From: Microlunatus flavus
GTDB taxonomy: Bacteria; Actinomycetota; Actinomycetes; Propionibacteriales; Propionibacteriaceae
Assembly: GCF_900110855.1 (NCBI RefSeq)
Contig: NZ_FOFA01000001.1
Coordinates: 682,001-746,000, forward strand
Length of the DNA stretch: 64,000 bases
Reading direction: 5' to 3'
Of the stretch, positions 3,129 to 12,456 are shown piece after piece. A model generated the notes under the pieces. It saw only the letters and a list, made by a program, of their open reading frames with translations. It was not told the DNA's origin and did no database searches. The position numbers and the translations under genes were made by a program. Every line of letters starts with the position of its first letter. The stretch's first letter is position 1.

Positions 3129-3243
3129 GGAGCACCCGCCGGGTTGGGTGAACGGGGTCCGCGGCGGGTATCAAGGCTCGACGGGTATCCCCCGACCCGT
3201 CGAGGCCCGTCGAGGGCTTGTCCCTGAGAGCATCGGAGCCCTC

Positions 3244-3954
3244 GTGGAGCTGCGTTCCCGTTTCGTCGCCGAGCTCAAGGCCGTCAGCGGCGGCCGCTTC
3301 CACGACCTGTCGCCGAGCAGGGTCGCCGACGCGGTGCGCCGCGCCCTGGGGCACCCGGGGGCCGGCATCGTCATGCTGCACCGGCTGCTCCGCGTCCCGG
3401 TCGGCGCGGCGGGCGAGCAGGTGGCCCTGGCCGAGCAGCTGCAGGTCACCCTCGGCGAGGGGCCGTGCCTGGCCTCGGCCGACTCAGGCCGGGCGTTCGC
3501 CTCCTCGGAGACGCAGCTCGCGCAGAGCTGGCCCGTCTACCGCCGGGCCCTCGTGGCCGCCACGCCCTACCGCAGCACGCTCTCCTTCCCGCTGCTCCGC
3601 GGCGGTCGGGTCTTCGCCGCCCTCGACGTCTACGGCCGCGACCCCGAACCGCACCTGCCGGCTCCACTGGCAGTCATCGCCGCCGAGGTGGCCGACCTGG
3701 TGGCGCCCCTGCTGCTGGCTCCTGCGCCACGGCCGGAGGACCCCCACGACCGGGCCGCCGGCGTCCGGGTGCAGCAACGGGAGCAGGTGCAGGTGGCGCT
3801 CGGGATGCTCATGGAGGCCGCCGAGGTCGAGGAGCTCGACGCGCTCGCGCTGATGCGGGGGTACGCGTTCCGTACCGGCACGCTCCTCGACACGGTCGCG
3901 GGGCGCATGACCGGCGGCGCGCTCGCCGCGGCCGACGTCCTCGAGGTCGGCTGA
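3244..3954 (+). CDS. GAF-ANTAR regulator
   Basis: This 236-residue protein has a GAF domain (about residues 20-155, with LGEGPCLASADSGRAF and YRSTLSFPLL) followed by an ANTAR RNA-binding domain (about 175-222, with EQVQVALGMLMEAAEV and ALMRGYAFRTGTLLDTVA). ANTAR proteins bind paired hairpins in leader RNA and prevent termination; the GAF domain would supply the signal. I favour the GTG at 3244, preceded by GGAG, over the GTG at 3148, because residues encoded between them resemble no domain. A stress-sigma-like promoter (GGGT, 16 nt, GGGTAT) lies at 3146-3171. I found no obvious two-hairpin ANTAR target nearby, so its RNA target is unknown. Confidence 0.85.
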   Translation: MELRSRFVAELKAVSGGRFHDLSPSRVADAVRRALGHPGAGIVMLHRLLRVPVGAAGEQVALAEQLQVTLGEGPCLASADSGRAFASSETQLAQSWPVYRRALVAATPYRSTLSFPLLRGGRVFAALDVYGRDPEPHLPAPLAVIAAEVADLVAPLLLAPAPRPEDPHDRAAGVRVQQREQVQVALGMLMEAAEVEELDALALMRGYAFRTGTLLDTVAGRMTGGALAAADVLEVG

Positions 3955-4027: not shown

Positions 4028-4807
4028 GTGCTCGACGACCCCGCCATCTCCGACGAGCGCGTGGCCCAGGTGCTCGGGCTCTACGCCCGCATGGCGCACC
4101 ACGTGGTCGCCGACCCCGAGCAGTGGCTCGGGCTGGACGACGAGCCGCCGGAGGACGCGAGCATCCCCGCCAAGGTCCTCGACGAGCTGCGCGACCGCGT
4201 CTTCGGCGAGGAGACGCCGGCGTCGCCCACCTGGGAGCAGCGACCGCTCGACGAGCGCGTCCGCTGGTGGACCCGCCGCATCGGCCTGACCGCCGGGCTG
4301 GCCGCCGCCGTGCCGCGGGTGGCCGGGGCGCTGGCCGACCGGATCCCGCTGCAGGCCGCGCTGGGCGCCTCGGGTGCCGGGCTCGCCGTCTGCGCCGTCG
4401 CCCGCGAGCACGGCGTCGTCGAGGCGGAACGCTGGGTGCCCCTGCTCGCCAAGGTCCTGCTCGACCGCGACCTGCCCGACCGGCTGGCCGCCGACGAGGC
4501 GGCGAAGGCGACCGACGCCGAGGCCGAGGCGCGGCTGCGGACGGTCCCGCCCCACGAGGAGGAGGCGACGGGGCTCGGTCCCGCGGCCCGCCGCGGCGTG
4601 GGGACGCTCTGGCGGCTGGGCCGCCAGATCTGGGAGCTGCAGTCGATCCTCGACGAGCGGCCGCGCGGCAGCTTCCTGTTCCGGGCGATCGCCCAGGTGC
4701 CCGTCGTCGGTGTGGCGGGCGGGTTCCTCGACGAACGGGGCGGCATCAAGCGGGCCGCCAAGGAGACGACGCAGCTGCTCGAGCAGGGCGGTCGCCGTTC
4801 CGGCTGA
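4028..4807 (+). CDS. EcsC-like protein (tentative)
   Basis: I do not recognise this 259-residue protein with certainty. It has an acidic N-terminus, then a Trp-rich start (RWWTRR) to a semi-hydrophobic stretch around residues 88-127. A second moderately hydrophobic stretch near the C-terminus has the pattern IAQVPVVGVAGGFLDERGG. This two-part layout with small-residue-rich helices recalls the EcsC family, whose role is unclear. The GTG start has a good ribosome site (GAAGGAG). It converges on the rhodopsin gene with only 9 nt between the two stops. Confidence 0.55.
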   Translation: MLDDPAISDERVAQVLGLYARMAHHVVADPEQWLGLDDEPPEDASIPAKVLDELRDRVFGEETPASPTWEQRPLDERVRWWTRRIGLTAGLAAAVPRVAGALADRIPLQAALGASGAGLAVCAVAREHGVVEAERWVPLLAKVLLDRDLPDRLAADEAAKATDAEAEARLRTVPPHEEEATGLGPAARRGVGTLWRLGRQIWELQSILDERPRGSFLFRAIAQVPVVGVAGGFLDERGGIKRAAKETTQLLEQGGRRSG

Positions 4808-4816
4808 GCCGGCGGG

Positions 4817-5782
4817 TCAGTCCCGCCCGGTGGCGGCAGGCGGGGCCTCTCCCCGGTGCTCGTGCGGGCCCGGGGCGACGTGGGTCTCTCCCTCGCGGAC
4901 GTCGCCGGGGTGGCCGTACGCCCCGACGCTGCGGTCGCCGGGCAGCACCGGCTGGGCCTCGGCCACCTTCTCGGTGCTGACGTACACGGGCTCGGGGTGG
5001 GCCGACTCCCCACGGGCCACGTCGACGGCCGTGCGCGCCTTGGCGCAGGAGTGGACGTAGAGGCCGAAGGCGACCTTCGCGCAGACGTCGGCGACGTCGA
5101 AGGCGAGCTGGCGGCCCACGGCCCAGCGCGTCGAGTCGGCGAAGAAGAACGGCACGCAGTAGGCGAGCGGGTAGACGCCCCACGTCCACGACAGCATCAG
5201 CGTCGCGCCCCGCAGGTGCTCGCCGGCCGGCTCGCCCAGCCGGCGGGCCTCGCGCAGCCCGGTGCGCAGCAGGCCGACGTAGAGCGGCACGAAGAAGGCG
5301 GTCGAGACGAGCCCCCAGACCAGGTGCCCGAGGCGACCCTCGTACACGGCCGCGCCGAGGTAGCCGGTGAGGATCATGAGGAACCCGAGCGCCATCCAGG
5401 TGGCCCGGGTCCTGCGGGCCCGCAGCCCGGTCAGGGTGGTGACGGCGAGCAGCTCGAGGGTGAGCAGCGGAACCGTCATCATCCAGTCGACGTAGCGGTA
5501 GGAGTTCCGGAACTGCAGCGTCGACGACGACGGGGAGAAGGTCGCGCGCTCCGGGTCGTAGTCGAAGCCCGAGACCCACGCGGCGACCAGCAGCACGTAC
5601 GACAGGCAGGCGACCAGGCCGATCACGGCCCCGGCGTCGCTCGAGGGCCGGTAGCGCGCCGACAGCTCGCGGCGGGACGCGAGCAGGTAGACCGACAGGC
5701 CCAGCAGCAGGAAGAAGGCGAGCACGAAGCCGGCGAGGACGACGTCCCACTGCGCCTCGGTGTAGGTCAGACGGCTCTCCAC
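4817..5782 (-). CDS. Microbial rhodopsin, predicted light-driven proton pump
   Basis: This 321-residue, seven-helix protein (helices near 14-35, 50-71, 95-118, 127-147, 152-173, 192-214 and 225-247) carries the microbial rhodopsin signature. Helix C reads RYVDWMMTVPLLTLEL. Arg96, Asp99, Thr103 and Glu110 match bacteriorhodopsin Arg82, Asp85, Thr89 and Asp96, which is the DTE motif of proteorhodopsin-type outward proton pumps. Helix F has Trp201, Tyr204 and Pro205. Helix G has Asp232 and the retinal-binding Lys236 in DVCAKVAFG. Leu107, at the proteorhodopsin tuning site, predicts green absorption. No histidine occurs before residue 153, so the proteorhodopsin His-Asp pair is absent. The B-C loop is long, and a 70-residue hydrophilic tail follows helix G. 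The GTG start has GGGAGA upstream. It lies 92 nt behind sppA on the same strand; no carotenoid or retinal genes are nearby. Confidence 0.93.
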   Translation of the reverse strand: MESRLTYTEAQWDVVLAGFVLAFFLLLGLSVYLLASRRELSARYRPSSDAGAVIGLVACLSYVLLVAAWVSGFDYDPERATFSPSSSTLQFRNSYRYVDWMMTVPLLTLELLAVTTLTGLRARRTRATWMALGFLMILTGYLGAAVYEGRLGHLVWGLVSTAFFVPLYVGLLRTGLREARRLGEPAGEHLRGATLMLSWTWGVYPLAYCVPFFFADSTRWAVGRQLAFDVADVCAKVAFGLYVHSCAKARTAVDVARGESAHPEPVYVSTEKVAEAQPVLPGDRSVGAYGHPGDVREGETHVAPGPHEHRGEAPPAATGRD

Positions 5783-5874: not shown

Positions 5875-7569
5875 TCAGCCCAGCGAGAGCGACGGCATCC
5901 GCAGCGCGGCGCCGGTGGGCAGCCCGAGGACCGCGGCGAGCCGGTCGAGGTCACCCAGGCCGGTGCCGACGAGCGCGGTACGCGGGTCCTCGCTGTTGCG
6001 CGGGCGGCCGAGCCGGGCCAGCGGCGCGACGTGCCGGGCCGGCCGGACGGGCGCCCGGACGGGCAGGTCGGCCCGCTCGCGGGCGATCCGCACGGCCTCG
6101 TGCAGCCCGCCGAGCTCGTCGACCAGCCCGACCTGCTGGGCGTCGGCACCGGTCCAGACCCGGCCGCGGGCCACGGCCTCGACCGCCTCCCGGCTCAGGC
6201 CCCGGCCGTCCGCGACCCGCCGGGTGAAGTCCTCGTAGACCTGGTCGAGGCTGGCGTCGAGGCGCTCGCGCTCCTCGTCGGTGAACGGGCGCCGCGAGGA
6301 GTACATGCGGGCGCGGGCGCCCTGCTCCACCGCGCCGGTCGAGAGGCCGAGCCGTTCCAGCAGCTCGGAGACCACGAACTTGCCGCCGAACACCCCGATC
6401 GACCCGGTCAGCGTCGCCGGCAGGGCGACGACGACGTCGGCCGGGCAGGCCACGTAGTAGCCCCCTGAGGCGGCGACGGACCCCATCGACACCACCACCG
6501 GTCGGCCGGACTCGCGGACCCGGCACACCTCGCGCCAGATCGTGTCGGAGGCGACCGAGGAACCGCCGGGCGAGTCGACGTGCAGCACCACGGCGCGGGC
6601 GGCGTCGTCGTCGAGGACGGCCCGCAGGTCCGCCGAGACGGTGTCGCTGCCGACCGAGGGCCCCATCGGGCCACGCCGGCTGGCCCCGCTGACGATGCCG
6701 CCGCGCACCTCGACCAGCGCGACGTGGCCGCGCGGCCGGCCGGGCAGCGACGGCAGCGCGGGCTTCCGGCGCGGGCGCCAGCGGTCGGCGAACAACAGCT
6801 CGGCGCGCTCGCCGACCCGCTCCCTCACCGAGGCGTAGACCTCGTCGCGGTAGCCGAGCCGGTCGACCAGTCCCGCCGCGCGCGCCTCGGTCGCCGTGCG
6901 CGGGCCCGTGTCGACGAGCCGGCGGACCTCCTCGACCGCCAGCCCGCGGCCTCGGGCGACGTCGGCCACCGCGCGGTCGAGCAGCGAGCCGCTGAGGCGC
7001 TCCAGGGACTCGCGGTGGGCGTCCGTCAGACCGGTGCGGCTGATCCGGTCGACCGCGTTCTTGTACTCGTGGCGGCCCTCGATCTCGGGCTCGACACCGA
7101 GCTTGTCGAGCGCGCCGCGCAGGAAGGTCGTCTCCACCGCCACCCCGAGCAGCGCCAGGTCCCCGCTCGGCTGCAGCCAGACCTCGTCGAAGGCCGACGC
7201 CAGCACGTACGCCGGCAGGTCGCCGCCGCCGGCGGAGAAGGTCTCGGCCCAGGCGACCGTCGGCTTGCCCGTCGCGGCGAACGCGGCCACGCCCTCGCGC
7301 AGCTCCTGGGCGGCCGCCCAGCCCGGCGTGCCGCCGACCTTGGCGACGAGCCCGACCACGCGCCGGTCGGACCCGGCCTCGTGCAGCGCCCTCAGCAGCG
7401 GCCCGCGCTGCGGACGCCCCCGGGACGAGAGCCGCGCGAGCGGGTCGCCCGGTGCCGGGTCGGCCGGCGCGACGGTGAGGTCGATCTCGAGCAGCAGCGG
7501 GCCCGTGCCGGGCAGCGCCCGTCGGGAGCCTCGCGTGGCGCTGTCCTGGGCCTGTCGAAGGGGGTCCAC
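5875..7569 (-). CDS. sppA: Signal peptide peptidase SppA, long form (peptidase S49)
   Basis: SppA degrades cleaved signal peptides. This protein has the duplicated S49 layout of the long form. The N-terminal half supplies the general base Lys170 (GRHEYKNAVD) and the C-terminal half the nucleophile Ser368 (MGSVAASGGYY). I place the start at the GTG at 7569, giving 564 residues, because the frame upstream to 7677 resembles nothing and overlaps the divergent dedA promoter. No N-terminal membrane anchor is visible, unlike the E. coli enzyme, so it may be soluble or peripheral. The first codons lie within a copy of a short repeat also found near 45.56 kb. The rhodopsin gene follows on the same strand. 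Confidence 0.88.
   Translation of the reverse strand: MDPLRQAQDSATRGSRRALPGTGPLLLEIDLTVAPADPAPGDPLARLSSRGRPQRGPLLRALHEAGSDRRVVGLVAKVGGTPGWAAAQELREGVAAFAATGKPTVAWAETFSAGGGDLPAYVLASAFDEVWLQPSGDLALLGVAVETTFLRGALDKLGVEPEIEGRHEYKNAVDRISRTGLTDAHRESLERLSGSLLDRAVADVARGRGLAVEEVRRLVDTGPRTATEARAAGLVDRLGYRDEVYASVRERVGERAELLFADRWRPRRKPALPSLPGRPRGHVALVEVRGGIVSGASRRGPMGPSVGSDTVSADLRAVLDDDAARAVVLHVDSPGGSSVASDTIWREVCRVRESGRPVVVSMGSVAASGGYYVACPADVVVALPATLTGSIGVFGGKFVVSELLERLGLSTGAVEQGARARMYSSRRPFTDEERERLDASLDQVYEDFTRRVADGRGLSREAVEAVARGRVWTGADAQQVGLVDELGGLHEAVRIARERADLPVRAPVRPARHVAPLARLGRPRNSEDPRTALVGTGLGDLDRLAAVLGLPTGAALRMPSLSLG
7545..7562 (-). repeat. 18-bp dispersed repeat, copy 1
   Basis: Read on the minus strand this is CCCTTCGACAGGCCCAGG. 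A second copy at 45552-45569 matches at 16 of 18 positions. Here it encodes PLRQAQ at the extreme N-terminus of SppA. Confidence 0.5.
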
Positions 7570-7672
7570 GCGCCCAACGTAGGACGGCGTGCCGACGGCA
7601 CCCGCCGCACCGACGGCCGTCTCCGGGTCGGCCCAGGGTCGTCGCCCGGCCCGTACGGGTCGTGGGGTCCGG

Positions 7673-7678
7673 GACAAT
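7673..7678 (+). promoter_or_regulatory. -10 box of dedA, leaderless
   Basis: GACAAT ends 7 nt before the GTG at 7686 and no Shine-Dalgarno precedes that codon. This favours GTG 7686 over the in-frame ATG at 7677, which overlaps the box. Confidence 0.6.
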
Positions 7679-9483: not shown

Positions 9484-10704
9484 ATGCTCACCGCCGAACG
9501 CCTCGTGCGCGACCGCCAGCTCCTCTTCGACCTGTGCCTGTGCGCCCTCGTGTCGGTCGTGACGACCGGCTACTCCCTGGCGGTGGGCGAGCGGGCGCTC
9601 GGCCTCGCCTCGCTCGTCGTGACGCTGCCGCTGCTCGTGCGCCGGGCCTTCCCGGCGGCGGCCTTCGTGATGATGACGGCCGGCTGCCTGTTCTCCCTCG
9701 CCGTCAGCCAGCTGCCGTCCGCGGCGGGCATCGTCTCCGTGCCGATCATGGTCTACACGCTCGCCCGCTGGAGCCCGCGCACGCTCGCCCGGCTCGGGTG
9801 GGCGGTGGGCGTCGTGGGTTCGGTGCTCGGGCCGGCGCGCTGGGCGCTGGGCGGCGGGGGGCTGACCGACGTCACCGTCTTCATGGTCAGCGTGGTCGCC
9901 TGCCTGGCCGTGGTGTCCGGGACCTACGTGGTGGGCCGCAAGCTGCGCGAGTCCGAGGACAGCGCGGGGCGCCAGCGCAGCGCGGAGGCCGAGCGGGTCC
10001 GGCTGCTGGAGTCCGAGCAGGAGCAGCGCGAGCGGGCCGCCACCGTCGACGAGCGCAACCGGATCGCGCGCGAGCTGCACGACATCGTGGCCCACTCCCT
10101 CTCGGTGATCGTCGTGCAGGCCGAGGGCGGGCGGGCCCTGGCCACCCGGCACCCCGAGCGCGCCGGCGAGGTCCTCGGAACCATCGCCGAGACGGGCCGC
10201 GAGGCGCTGACCGAGACCCGCCGCATCCTCGGCGTGCTGCGCGACGGCCGCGGGGACGCGAGCACCGCGTACGGGCCGCAGCCCGGGCTCGCCGACATCG
10301 CCGACCTGGTGCGCCGCACGAGCGAGCGGGCCGAGCTGACGACGTTCGGCACGGCGCCGCCCCTGTCGCCGGCCGTGGGGCTGACCGCGTACCGGGTGGT
10401 GCAGGAGTCGCTGACCAACGTCCTCAAGCACGCCGGGCCGGACGCCCGCGCCCGCGTCGTCGTGGCGTGCACCGCCGACGCGGTCGAGATCGAGGTGGTC
10501 GACGACGGCGGCGGCGCGGCCGCGGTGCCCCCGCCCGACGGGCAGGGCCACGGGCTGCGCGGGATGGCCGAGCGGGTCAGCCTGCACGACGGCGAGCTGT
10601 CGGCCGGCCCCGGCGCGAACGGAGGGTTCGTCGTGCGGGCCTGGATCCCGTACGAGCGGGCGGTCGAGACCCAGCCCGACCTGCCGCGGGTGGTGGCGTG
10701 GTGA
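9484..10704 (+). CDS. NarL-family sensor histidine kinase
   Basis: This 406-residue kinase has an N-terminal block of about five membrane helices (residues 15-150), a short coiled-coil linker (158-190) and a HisKA_3 dimerisation domain with phospho-acceptor His199 in ARELHDIVAHSL. A HATPase domain follows, with the N-box VVQESLTNVLKHAG and the G-box GHGLRGMAERV. The membrane block has almost no extracellular loops, so the signal probably lies within the membrane, as in DesK-like kinases. Its stop overlaps the response regulator start by 4 nt, which marks them as a pair. Confidence 0.92.
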   Translation: MLTAERLVRDRQLLFDLCLCALVSVVTTGYSLAVGERALGLASLVVTLPLLVRRAFPAAAFVMMTAGCLFSLAVSQLPSAAGIVSVPIMVYTLARWSPRTLARLGWAVGVVGSVLGPARWALGGGGLTDVTVFMVSVVACLAVVSGTYVVGRKLRESEDSAGRQRSAEAERVRLLESEQEQRERAATVDERNRIARELHDIVAHSLSVIVVQAEGGRALATRHPERAGEVLGTIAETGREALTETRRILGVLRDGRGDASTAYGPQPGLADIADLVRRTSERAELTTFGTAPPLSPAVGLTAYRVVQESLTNVLKHAGPDARARVVVACTADAVEIEVVDDGGGAAAVPPPDGQGHGLRGMAERVSLHDGELSAGPGANGGFVVRAWIPYERAVETQPDLPRVVAW

Positions 10705-11390
10705 GCGGGATCGCGGCGGTCCCTTCGACCGCGACGCGGGTGTTCCTGGTCGACGACCAGGCGCTGGTGCGCGGCGGGTTCCGGATGCTCATCGAGGCCG
10801 AGGACGACCTCGAGGTGGTCGGCGAGGCCTCCGACGGCCAGGAGGCGCTGGCGCGGCTGCGGACCACCCCGGCCGACGTCGTGCTCATGGACGTGCGGAT
10901 GCCCGTGCTCGACGGCGTCGAGACCACCCGGCGCCTGCTCGCCGACGGCAACCCGGCCCGCGTGCTCGTGCTGACGACGTTCGACCTGGACGAGTACGTG
11001 TTCGCCGCGCTCAAGGCGGGGGCCAGCGGCTTCCTGCTCAAGGACGCGCGTCCCGACGAGCTGCTCTCGGCGATCCGCGACATCGCGGCGGGCGACGCCG
11101 TGATGGCCCCCAGCGCCACGCGCCGGCTGCTCGACCACGTCGTACCGACCCTGCCGGGCGAACCACCCAGCCGCGACGACAAGCGCCTCGACGAGCTCAC
11201 CGCCCGCGAGCTCGAGGTCCTGCGCGAGATCGCCGCCGGCGCGACGAACCCCGAGATTGGCGCCCGCCTCTACATGGCCGAGGGCACCGTCAAGACCCAC
11301 GTCGGCCGGCTGCTGTCCAAGCTCGGCGTCCGGGACCGCGTCGGCCTGGTCCTCTTCGCCTTCGAGGTCGGACTGCGACCCGACCGCTGA
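10701..11390 (+). CDS. NarL/LuxR-family response regulator
   Basis: This 229-residue regulator begins at the GTG that overlaps the kinase stop (GTGA). The receiver domain carries the acidic pair in FLVDDQ, phospho-acceptor Asp64 in LMDVRMP and the conserved Lys in LLKDARPDE. The C-terminal LuxR helix-turn-helix reads LTARELEVLREIAAGATNPE then GTVKTHVGRLLSKLGVRDR. It is partner to the upstream kinase. No obvious target operon adjoins it. Confidence 0.93.
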   Translation: MSGIAAVPSTATRVFLVDDQALVRGGFRMLIEAEDDLEVVGEASDGQEALARLRTTPADVVLMDVRMPVLDGVETTRRLLADGNPARVLVLTTFDLDEYVFAALKAGASGFLLKDARPDELLSAIRDIAAGDAVMAPSATRRLLDHVVPTLPGEPPSRDDKRLDELTARELEVLREIAAGATNPEIGARLYMAEGTVKTHVGRLLSKLGVRDRVGLVLFAFEVGLRPDR

Positions 11391-11409
11391 CGCGGCCGAC
11401 CTCCCCGGG

Positions 11410-11458
11410 CGAGAGGTGGATGAGCCCGGCCCCGACGAGGAGGACGGGCTCCCTCTCG
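11410..11458. terminator. Two-step inverted repeat between convergent genes
   Basis: CGAGAGG at 11410-11416 pairs with CCTCTCG at 11452-11458, and GAGCCCG at 11422-11428 with CGGGCTC at 11445-11451. The structure sits in the 70-nt gap between the response regulator and the convergent oxidoreductase gene and could end both transcripts. Confidence 0.5.
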
Positions 11459-11460
11459 GC

Positions 11461-12456
11461 TCAGCTCTTGGGTGCGGCCTCGCGCAGCGCGGCGAGGATC
11501 GGCTCCGCCGCGGTGTCGAGGAACTCGCGCTGGCCGTCGTCGCCGACCTGGACCAGGGCGATGTCGGTGAAGCCGGCCTCCCAGTACGCGCTGACGGCCT
11601 GGACGATGGCGTCGACGTCGGGCCCGCAGGGGATCGACTCGGCGACGTCCTCGGGGCGGACGAACTGCGTCGCCCCGGCGAAGCCGTGCGGGGTCGGCAG
11701 GTCGGCGTTGACCGCCCAGCCGCCGCCGAACCAGCGGAACTGGTCGTGCGCCTTGGCGATCGCCGCGTCCTTGTCCGTGCCCCAGCAGATCGGGATCTGC
11801 CCGATCTTGCGGGAGCCCTTGCCGCTGGAGAGGATGCCGCCCTTCTCCTTGTCCCACGCCTTCACGGCGTCGGCGTCGGGCTCGACGGCGATGAGGTGGT
11901 CGCCGAGCGGCGCGAACCGCTCGATCGACTTCTCCCCCGACACGGCCATCCCGATGGGGACGCCGCCGTCCGGGGTGTCCCAGATCCGCGCCGAGTCGAC
12001 GCGGAAGTACTCCCCGCCCCACGTCACGAGCTCACCGGTGAGCAGCTCGCGGATGATCGTGGTCGCCTCCTCGAGCATGTCCTGGCGCTGCGCGACCGGC
12101 GCCCAGCCCTCGCCGGTGATGTGCTCGTTGAGGTTCTCCCCCGAACCGAGGCCGAGGGTGAAGCGCCCGTCGCTGATGATCTGCAGCGTCGCCGCCTTCT
12201 GCGCCACCACGGCCGGGTGGTAGCGCTGGATCGGGCAGGTCACGTACGTCATGAGCTCGACGCTCGAGGTGAGCGCGGCGACGGCGCCCAGCATGGTCCA
12301 CGCGTAGCCCGCGTGGCCCTGCGAGGCCAGCCACGGGGAGTAGTGGTCGCTGGAGACCTCGAAGTCGAAGCCGACCTGCTCGGCGCGCGCGCCGTACTCG
12401 ACGATCTGCTTGGGACCGCTCTGCTCGGTCATGAGGGTGTAGCCGAATCGCACCAT
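11461..12456 (-). CDS. LLM-class F420-dependent oxidoreductase, FGD-like
   Basis: This 331-residue TIM-barrel protein belongs to the luciferase-like family that uses coenzyme F420. Recognisable stretches are FEVSSDHYSPWL, TYVTCPIQRYHPAVVAQ, LGLGSGENLNEH and WDTPDGGVPIGMAVSG. They align by eye with F420-dependent glucose-6-phosphate dehydrogenase and its relatives. The substrate is not determined. The ATG at 12456 has no Shine-Dalgarno. It is a single-gene unit converging on the response regulator. Confidence 0.85.
   Translation of the reverse strand: MVRFGYTLMTEQSGPKQIVEYGARAEQVGFDFEVSSDHYSPWLASQGHAGYAWTMLGAVAALTSSVELMTYVTCPIQRYHPAVVAQKAATLQIISDGRFTLGLGSGENLNEHITGEGWAPVAQRQDMLEEATTIIRELLTGELVTWGGEYFRVDSARIWDTPDGGVPIGMAVSGEKSIERFAPLGDHLIAVEPDADAVKAWDKEKGGILSSGKGSRKIGQIPICWGTDKDAAIAKAHDQFRWFGGGWAVNADLPTPHGFAGATQFVRPEDVAESIPCGPDVDAIVQAVSAYWEAGFTDIALVQVGDDGQREFLDTAAEPILAALREAAPKS

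Follow-up and report, generated by a model that had tools for sequence, protein, structure and literature searches.

We found that the gene at 4817–5782 on the minus strand of the window (the whole 64,000-nucleotide stretch of DNA analyzed here) is a genuine gene for a light-absorbing membrane protein of the retinal-binding type. Its product adds a member to the tailed rhodopsins related to the cryorhodopsins, an established but scarcely characterized group. The most interesting aspect of this opsin is its unexplained retinal supply. The beta-carotene dioxygenase Blh was not found in the window genome, which was unexpected because both relatives from the same genus carry Blh directly behind the opsin gene.

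The gene encodes 321 amino acids from a GTG start, has its stop codon at 4817–4819, and shows a third-position GC (GC3) of 0.98. The Pfam profile PF01036 matched the protein with an E-value of 1.4e-25 and 90.6 bits (cut-off, 24.6), and this open reading frame was the sole PF01036 match in the window genome. The strength and singularity of the match, therefore, indicated that 4817–5782 is not a chance open reading frame. No NCBIfam profile matched the opsin. A structure model was built from a 41-sequence alignment, after a three-sequence version (pLDDT of 59.1) had been discarded. It showed a mean pLDDT of 89.6, a pTM of 0.84, a B–C hairpin, and seven helices, in agreement with the count given in the earlier note. 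Together with the profile match above the cut-off and the Schiff-base Lys236 in helix G, these helices are those of a type-1 microbial rhodopsin.

Kinship with cryorhodopsins and distribution

Relatives were collected by an alignment query; a single-protein query of genome contigs returned 85 pattern matches and no relatives. The best 80 of 584 considered were used, such that clade membership as given here is a lower bound and near relatives of the window genome may lie outside it. Among these best 80, the nearest named proteins came from Geodermatophilus, Blastococcus, and Klenkia, with 42–48% identity over the best segment, followed by the cryorhodopsins. Three plasmid records matched the opsin, all under 60% identity. 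A scan of viral contigs gave nine pattern matches and no relatives, and a viral origin was dropped.

The earlier note had proposed placing the protein in a microbial rhodopsin tree. In a tree of 87 rows, restricted to helices A–G and built without sodium-pump, chloride-pump, and marine proteorhodopsin rows, the window protein fell with the cryorhodopsins in a 21-row clade (support of 100/99), away from 66 xanthorhodopsin/actinorhodopsin-type rows. The clade consisted of three parts: the window protein with two same-genus proteins (L003 and L004; 100/98), 12 Geodermatophilaceae-type proteins (100/96), and six Microbacteriaceae proteins, namely five cryorhodopsins and one Frondihabitans plasmid protein (100/97). 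The tree carried a long-branch warning that included the window branch (0.5). When six long-branch rows were removed, the remaining 19 clade rows stayed together at 100/100. The window trio split first in the 87-row tree, with the rest joined at 99/94, an order of subclades that is provisional. Membership of the window protein in this tailed, His-less clade together with the cryorhodopsins is close to certain.

Pairwise comparisons ranked CryoR1 first (E-value of 5.9e-43), followed by CryoR2 (7.9e-36), psXR (5.1e-31), the sodium pump ErNaR (8qle; 3e-30), Gloeobacter rhodopsin (1.2e-29), and a chloride pump (3.8e-25). The best named proteorhodopsin reached 1.4e-9 and green proteorhodopsin 1.9e-9; for sodium pumps, chloride pumps, and marine proteorhodopsins, kinship was judged by these E-values only. 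The earlier note had described the protein as proteorhodopsin-type. This label suits Asp99, Thr103, and Glu110 and all the canonical proton-path residues. However, the tree, the E-values, and the fold spoke against kinship with proteorhodopsins, the pairwise comparison placed the closest relatives elsewhere, and Ser61 occupies the site of the helix-B His.

Within the genus, three of the 20 genomes examined carried PF01036, and the family sample of 197 genomes contained four with a match; the fourth of these (G167) has an opsin (L002) that the tree placed with the xanthorhodopsin-type rows. A profile of the clade matched 64 of 394 genomes of the class, with 367 bits for the window genome, which is part of the profile, and 155.7 bits for the best other; the two same-genus relatives were absent from the matches in this sample. 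Among the other 63 matches, 29 were read, and all 29 had the DTE motif (Asp-Thr-Glu) and none the tail motif, suggesting that the tailed clade is rare in the class sample. Rhodopsin genes have been described in 11 Geodermatophilaceae genomes (PMC10190537), and no mention of this family was found by text searches in PMC9601134, PMC10284914, and PMC7979833. One opsin inside the Blastococcus/Geodermatophilus branch (L022) is filed under 'UNVERIFIED_ORG: Bacillus sp. AZ43', an organism name that is probably wrong. The window protein extends the tailed, His-less rhodopsins past cold-living Microbacteriaceae and Geodermatophilaceae to a third lineage with a full pump motif.

Functional residues and the C-terminal tail

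The positions that the earlier note had given for Arg96, Asp99, Thr103, Leu107, Glu110, Asp232, and Lys236 were all reproduced by sequence alignment. The helix-C motif from Arg96 to Glu110, including Asp99 and Thr103, is encoded at 5453–5497, and the helix-G stretch from Asp232 to the retinal-binding Lys236 at 5075–5089 (both minus strand, as are all sites below). Helix C reads DTE in 18 of the 21 clade rows. Green absorption, as predicted earlier from Leu107, would be a reasonable expectation from sequence. The His-Asp pair had also been said to be missing, and Ser61 (codon at 5600–5602) indeed takes the place of the helix-B His that proteorhodopsins and xanthorhodopsins have; this site is Ser or Ala in 21/21 clade rows and His in 66/66 other rows. 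A long B–C loop, by contrast with these claims, was only modestly borne out: residues 66–95 comprise 30 residues compared with 26–30 in ten other measured sequences. The loop contains the hairpin (residues 73–84; 5531–5566), with strands at 73–76 and 81–84 in the model.

Gly51 (codon at 5630–5632) occupies the position at which cryorhodopsins have their hallmark Arg (R57 of CryoR1, T46 of bacteriorhodopsin [BR]). Across the 21 clade rows, this site contains Gly in 10, Ala in 6, and Arg in 5; the Arg-containing rows are the five cryorhodopsins, and Gly or Ala fills the site in all 16 remaining rows. According to PMC12227055, cryorhodopsins are defined by this helix-B Arg. The window protein shares their elongated conserved C terminus, but because Gly51 stands in place of the Arg, membership in the cryorhodopsins themselves was rejected. 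CryoR1 and CryoR2 (PDB 8r0k and 8r0p) were nevertheless the best counterparts by sequence and fold; like the window protein, they fall in the clade, have the tail motif, and lack the helix-B His, whereas they have EAE or ESE plus Arg instead of DTE plus Gly51 and share 31–36% identity over the fold alignments.

Two further residues were observed in the clade alignment. His244 (codon at 5051–5053) lies where helix G reaches the cytoplasmic side; all clade rows but one share it, the exception among the 21 being L024, which has Phe. Its equivalent in CryoR1, H249, lines the cytoplasmic cavity, and His244 could relay protons to Glu110. The helix-F Trp of the retinal pocket (Trp201 in the window protein, W182 of BR) is replaced by Phe in 12/12 Geodermatophilaceae-type proteins (L014–L024 and L028) and is present in the other nine clade rows and in 66/66 rows outside.

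A Gly/His/acidic tail of 70 residues had been noted after helix G. A tail is present; however, helix G ends at about residue 256 in the model, which leaves 65 residues, of which 281–321 form the part rich in Gly, His, and acidic side chains. The first part, residues 257–280 (4943–5014), is conserved as a clade motif, forms strands at 266–268 and 271–274, and was modeled with block pLDDT values of 91–92. The extension of residues 281–321 (4820–4942) had block values of 52–64 and, judging from the model, is probably disordered; it is missing in both same-genus relatives in the alignment. The C-terminal motif, which starts in helix G at Ala247, occurred in 21/21 clade rows and 0/66 others. Since the motif was written after the clade had been seen, the former count is descriptive, and the real test lies in the 0/66 together with the 0/29 from the class sample. 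In a fold search, the first 11 ranked PDB chains were all CryoR1 or CryoR2, aligned through the tail over 282–284 columns. The solved cryorhodopsin structures show a pentamer whose cytoplasmic side is capped by the elongated C terminus; this terminus has been proposed to bind a transducer, and its truncation left the oligomer and photocycle alike (PMC12227055).

Other actinobacterial rhodopsins were compared in the same terms. Actinorhodopsins and xanthorhodopsins share the rhodopsin fold and DTE with the window protein, but they have the helix-B His in 66/66 rows and the tail motif in 0/66 and are separate in the tree. On these three grounds, a xanthorhodopsin-type actinorhodopsin was rejected. 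The rhodopsins of Geodermatophilus, Blastococcus, and Klenkia resemble the window protein in being DTE-containing, His-less, and tailed, and differ in their own subclade and in the helix-F Phe. The DSE rhodopsins (Marin 2023), known here through PMC12227055 and compared by description only, likewise have elongated ends and no helix-B Arg; they have Ser where the window protein has Thr103, and the Asp-Ser-Glu of helix C is, thus, lacking in the latter. The same source calls them the closest relatives of cryorhodopsins, with a similar photocycle scheme. KrActR (Kineococcus) and QsActR (Quadrisphaera), also compared by description only, are actinobacterial proteins described as proton pumps that form pentamers, have C-tails longer than that of KR2, and absorb at 532 and 551 nm (PMC5974397). 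They are said to be nearer than xanthorhodopsins to NQ-type pumps (PMC11790970) and may belong to the tailed clade.

The Antarctic Frondihabitans sp. PAMC 28766 carries a plasmid-borne opsin (L013, 3878–4753) that groups with the cryorhodopsins and combines DTE and the tail with a Gly at the hallmark-Arg site, indicating that the tail and the Arg are separable. It adjoins a response regulator gene and lies near an ice-binding protein gene, and no DUF7882 gene was present in the 8.8 kb of sequence examined.

Probable proton pumping and possible light sensing

On balance, we favor the reading that the window protein is a light-driven outward proton pump, a prediction from its residues that we hold with moderate confidence. 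The complete proton path (R96-D99-T103-E110-D232-K236) without the blocking Arg is the reason for this preference, and DTE in 18/21 clade rows, Gly51, and the clade support (100/99, and 100/100 without the long-branch rows) are in its favor, as are a fold that, tail included, is closest to the cryorhodopsins and the pumping described for KrActR and QsActR. Retinal on Lys236 would isomerize, and the Schiff-base proton would pass to Asp99, with Asp232 and Arg96, and exit on the outer side. Reprotonation of the Schiff base would then proceed from the cytoplasmic side through Glu110. The Arg of CryoR1 obstructs this path and makes the pKa of the cytoplasmic Glu lower; the R57T mutation made decay approximately 100-fold faster at pH 8, and E113Q had no effect (PMC12227055), indicating that CryoR1 does not use the donor-site Glu as its proton donor. 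As Gly51 replaces this Arg in the window protein, reprotonation by Glu110 should be possible. By analogy with the solved cryorhodopsins, the protein may form pentamers that are capped inside the cell by residues 257–280.

Several points weigh against a pump: the characterized relatives are slow and are not outward pumps, cryorhodopsins with DTE exist, and Blh was not found. To our knowledge, DSE rhodopsins pump little if at all. The photocycles of cryorhodopsins last minutes, and these proteins are proposed to be UV sensors that transport protons only weakly and inward, as CryoR1 does; DTE occurs among them, for example, in CryoR5 (PMC12227055). Thus, DTE alone does not decide function. In the literature searched, we found no pumping assay for a non-cryorhodopsin protein shown to be in the tailed clade.

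The main rival is a slow-cycling photosensor like cryorhodopsins or DSE rhodopsins, whose conserved tail signals to a cytoplasmic partner. The kinship by sequence, tree, and fold, the tail motif in every clade row, and the transducer binding proposed for the cryorhodopsin tail all suit such a sensor, as does a histidine kinase gene (9484–10704, Pfam scan) about 4 kb from the opsin. However, the hallmark Arg is missing, and the kinase gene is separated from the opsin and belongs to a common type. Furthermore, a DUF7882 gene lies directly upstream of the opsin in 3/3 cryorhodopsin loci, but tblastn detected none in any other of 147 sequences, the window included (flanks up to 6 kb, most clade loci), and none was detected in the window genome by a search in which no control genome was positive either. 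A photosensor is rather unlikely in our estimate. Since the tail is conserved where DUF7882 was unseen, it probably has a role besides the proposed DUF7882 partner. The clade includes both Arg-containing and Arg-free proteins built on a common scaffold, and comparing them could show what divides a pump from a UV sensor.

Retinal supply and gene neighborhood

Light-energy gain for the host, which the earlier note had suggested, needs retinal. In each of the two same-genus relatives, Blh (PF15461) is the gene immediately after the opsin, with 2 bases between the genes in L003 (362–2247) and a 4-base overlap in L004 (1444–3374), as if translationally coupled, and also adjoins the opsin in the clade loci L017 and L023. 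In the window, the opsin is instead followed by a convergent gene at 4028–4807 (plus strand), which has no Pfam match and was left unassigned to a family. No Blh match was obtained among the open reading frames of the 64-kb window or in the window genome (completeness of 100, 26 contigs), whereas the same PF15461 search was positive in G074, G130, and G167.

Seventeen tail-clade genomes were searched (G000, which is the window genome, G074, G130, and 14 reached via loci, a set without L020, the Frondihabitans plasmid host, and the hosts of CryoR1 and CryoR2). Blh was found in eight of them, including 3/3 of the cryorhodopsin genomes searched, and not in nine, namely the window genome and those of L015, L016, L018, L019, L021, L022, L024, and L028. 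The genomes reached via loci are without a completeness value; a gene might therefore be concealed in an assembly gap, but hardly nine times. RPE65-family genes (PF03055) were present in 5/18 genomes (the 17 plus G167). Among the nine genomes lacking Blh, two contain such an oxygenase (the window genome and that of L015), seven of 17 have neither enzyme, and both occur in G074, L014, and L023, indicating that the two are not complementary.

The window genome contains crtE-, crtI-, and crtB-type genes, phytoene synthase included, in a single cluster. A lycopene cyclase family protein matched TIGR01790 with 212.6 bits (cut-off, 209.5), which is the better evidence for this step, since the genome-wide Pfam search was positive in 10/14 controls. 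One RPE65-type oxygenase was identified on contig C15 as a frame open over 483 amino acids that ends at its own TAA stop; its best PDB match was NdCCD (6vcf; 1.6e-113). Four His residues, which we take to be those of the family's iron site, appear to be kept in its alignment with NdCCD. This protein is no more than a candidate for retinal formation. Retinal may come from carotenoids cut by the C15 oxygenase, or else be made by an unrecognized enzyme or supplied externally.

We tentatively propose, as less than an even prospect, that members of the tailed clade often have working rhodopsins although no enzyme known to form retinal is present, and that in the window genome the apocarotenoid-type oxygenase replaced Blh. 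If this is true, an unrecognized retinal-forming enzyme or retinal uptake would be the normal arrangement in these actinobacteria. The Blh-less genomes, several of them of named strains, make testable the question of alternative retinal supply that was raised in PMC7734400; according to that paper, Aurantimicrobium minutum has no known retinal genes, yet contains retinal and a functional rhodopsin.

Alternatively, after loss of Blh, the opsin might be mostly without chromophore in this strain or depend on the retinal of neighbors. Such a loss would fit the absence of a Blh match in the window genome, the adjacent Blh of both same-genus relatives, and the finding that, within the genus, just three of the 20 genomes examined contain a rhodopsin. 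Nevertheless, the frame is intact with a GC3 of 0.98, all functional residues are kept, Blh is missing in more than half of the clade genomes searched, the genome has a carotenoid pathway and an RPE65-type oxygenase, and the Aurantimicrobium example shows that an actinobacterium can have a functional rhodopsin without known retinal genes. We, therefore, regard a chromophore-poor opsin as very improbable.

The open reading frames around the opsin were clustered across 19 loci with 6-kb flanks, an analysis that is silent on genes elsewhere. Each gene family beside the opsin was present in at most 7/19 loci, and no candidate for a conserved neighbor replacing Blh was found among the family representatives scanned. 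These were an ABC transporter ATPase (F1), a transporter permease (F2), a thioesterase (F4), a response regulator (F8), a weak aldolase match (F10), two families with no match (F3 and F6), and F5, an acetyltransferase in one of three representatives and without a match in two. The simple gene caller mis-framed the opsin in three of the 19 loci (L014, L017, and L024); thus, small genes near the opsin may have been missed. The opsin surroundings within the genus had no gene families in common except one weak pair (F14). Upstream of the window opsin lies an S49-type peptidase gene (5875–7677, minus strand; PF01343, E-value of 3.3e-74). A GAF-domain gene adjoins the opsin or is one gene off in three genomes of the family, at 3148–3954 (plus strand) in the window, 10466–11203 (minus strand) in L010, and 11202–12038 (minus strand) in L012. 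An ANTAR domain was recognized in the L012 gene, below the threshold in the window gene, and not in the L010 gene, and GAF-domain genes may be common in these family genomes generally.
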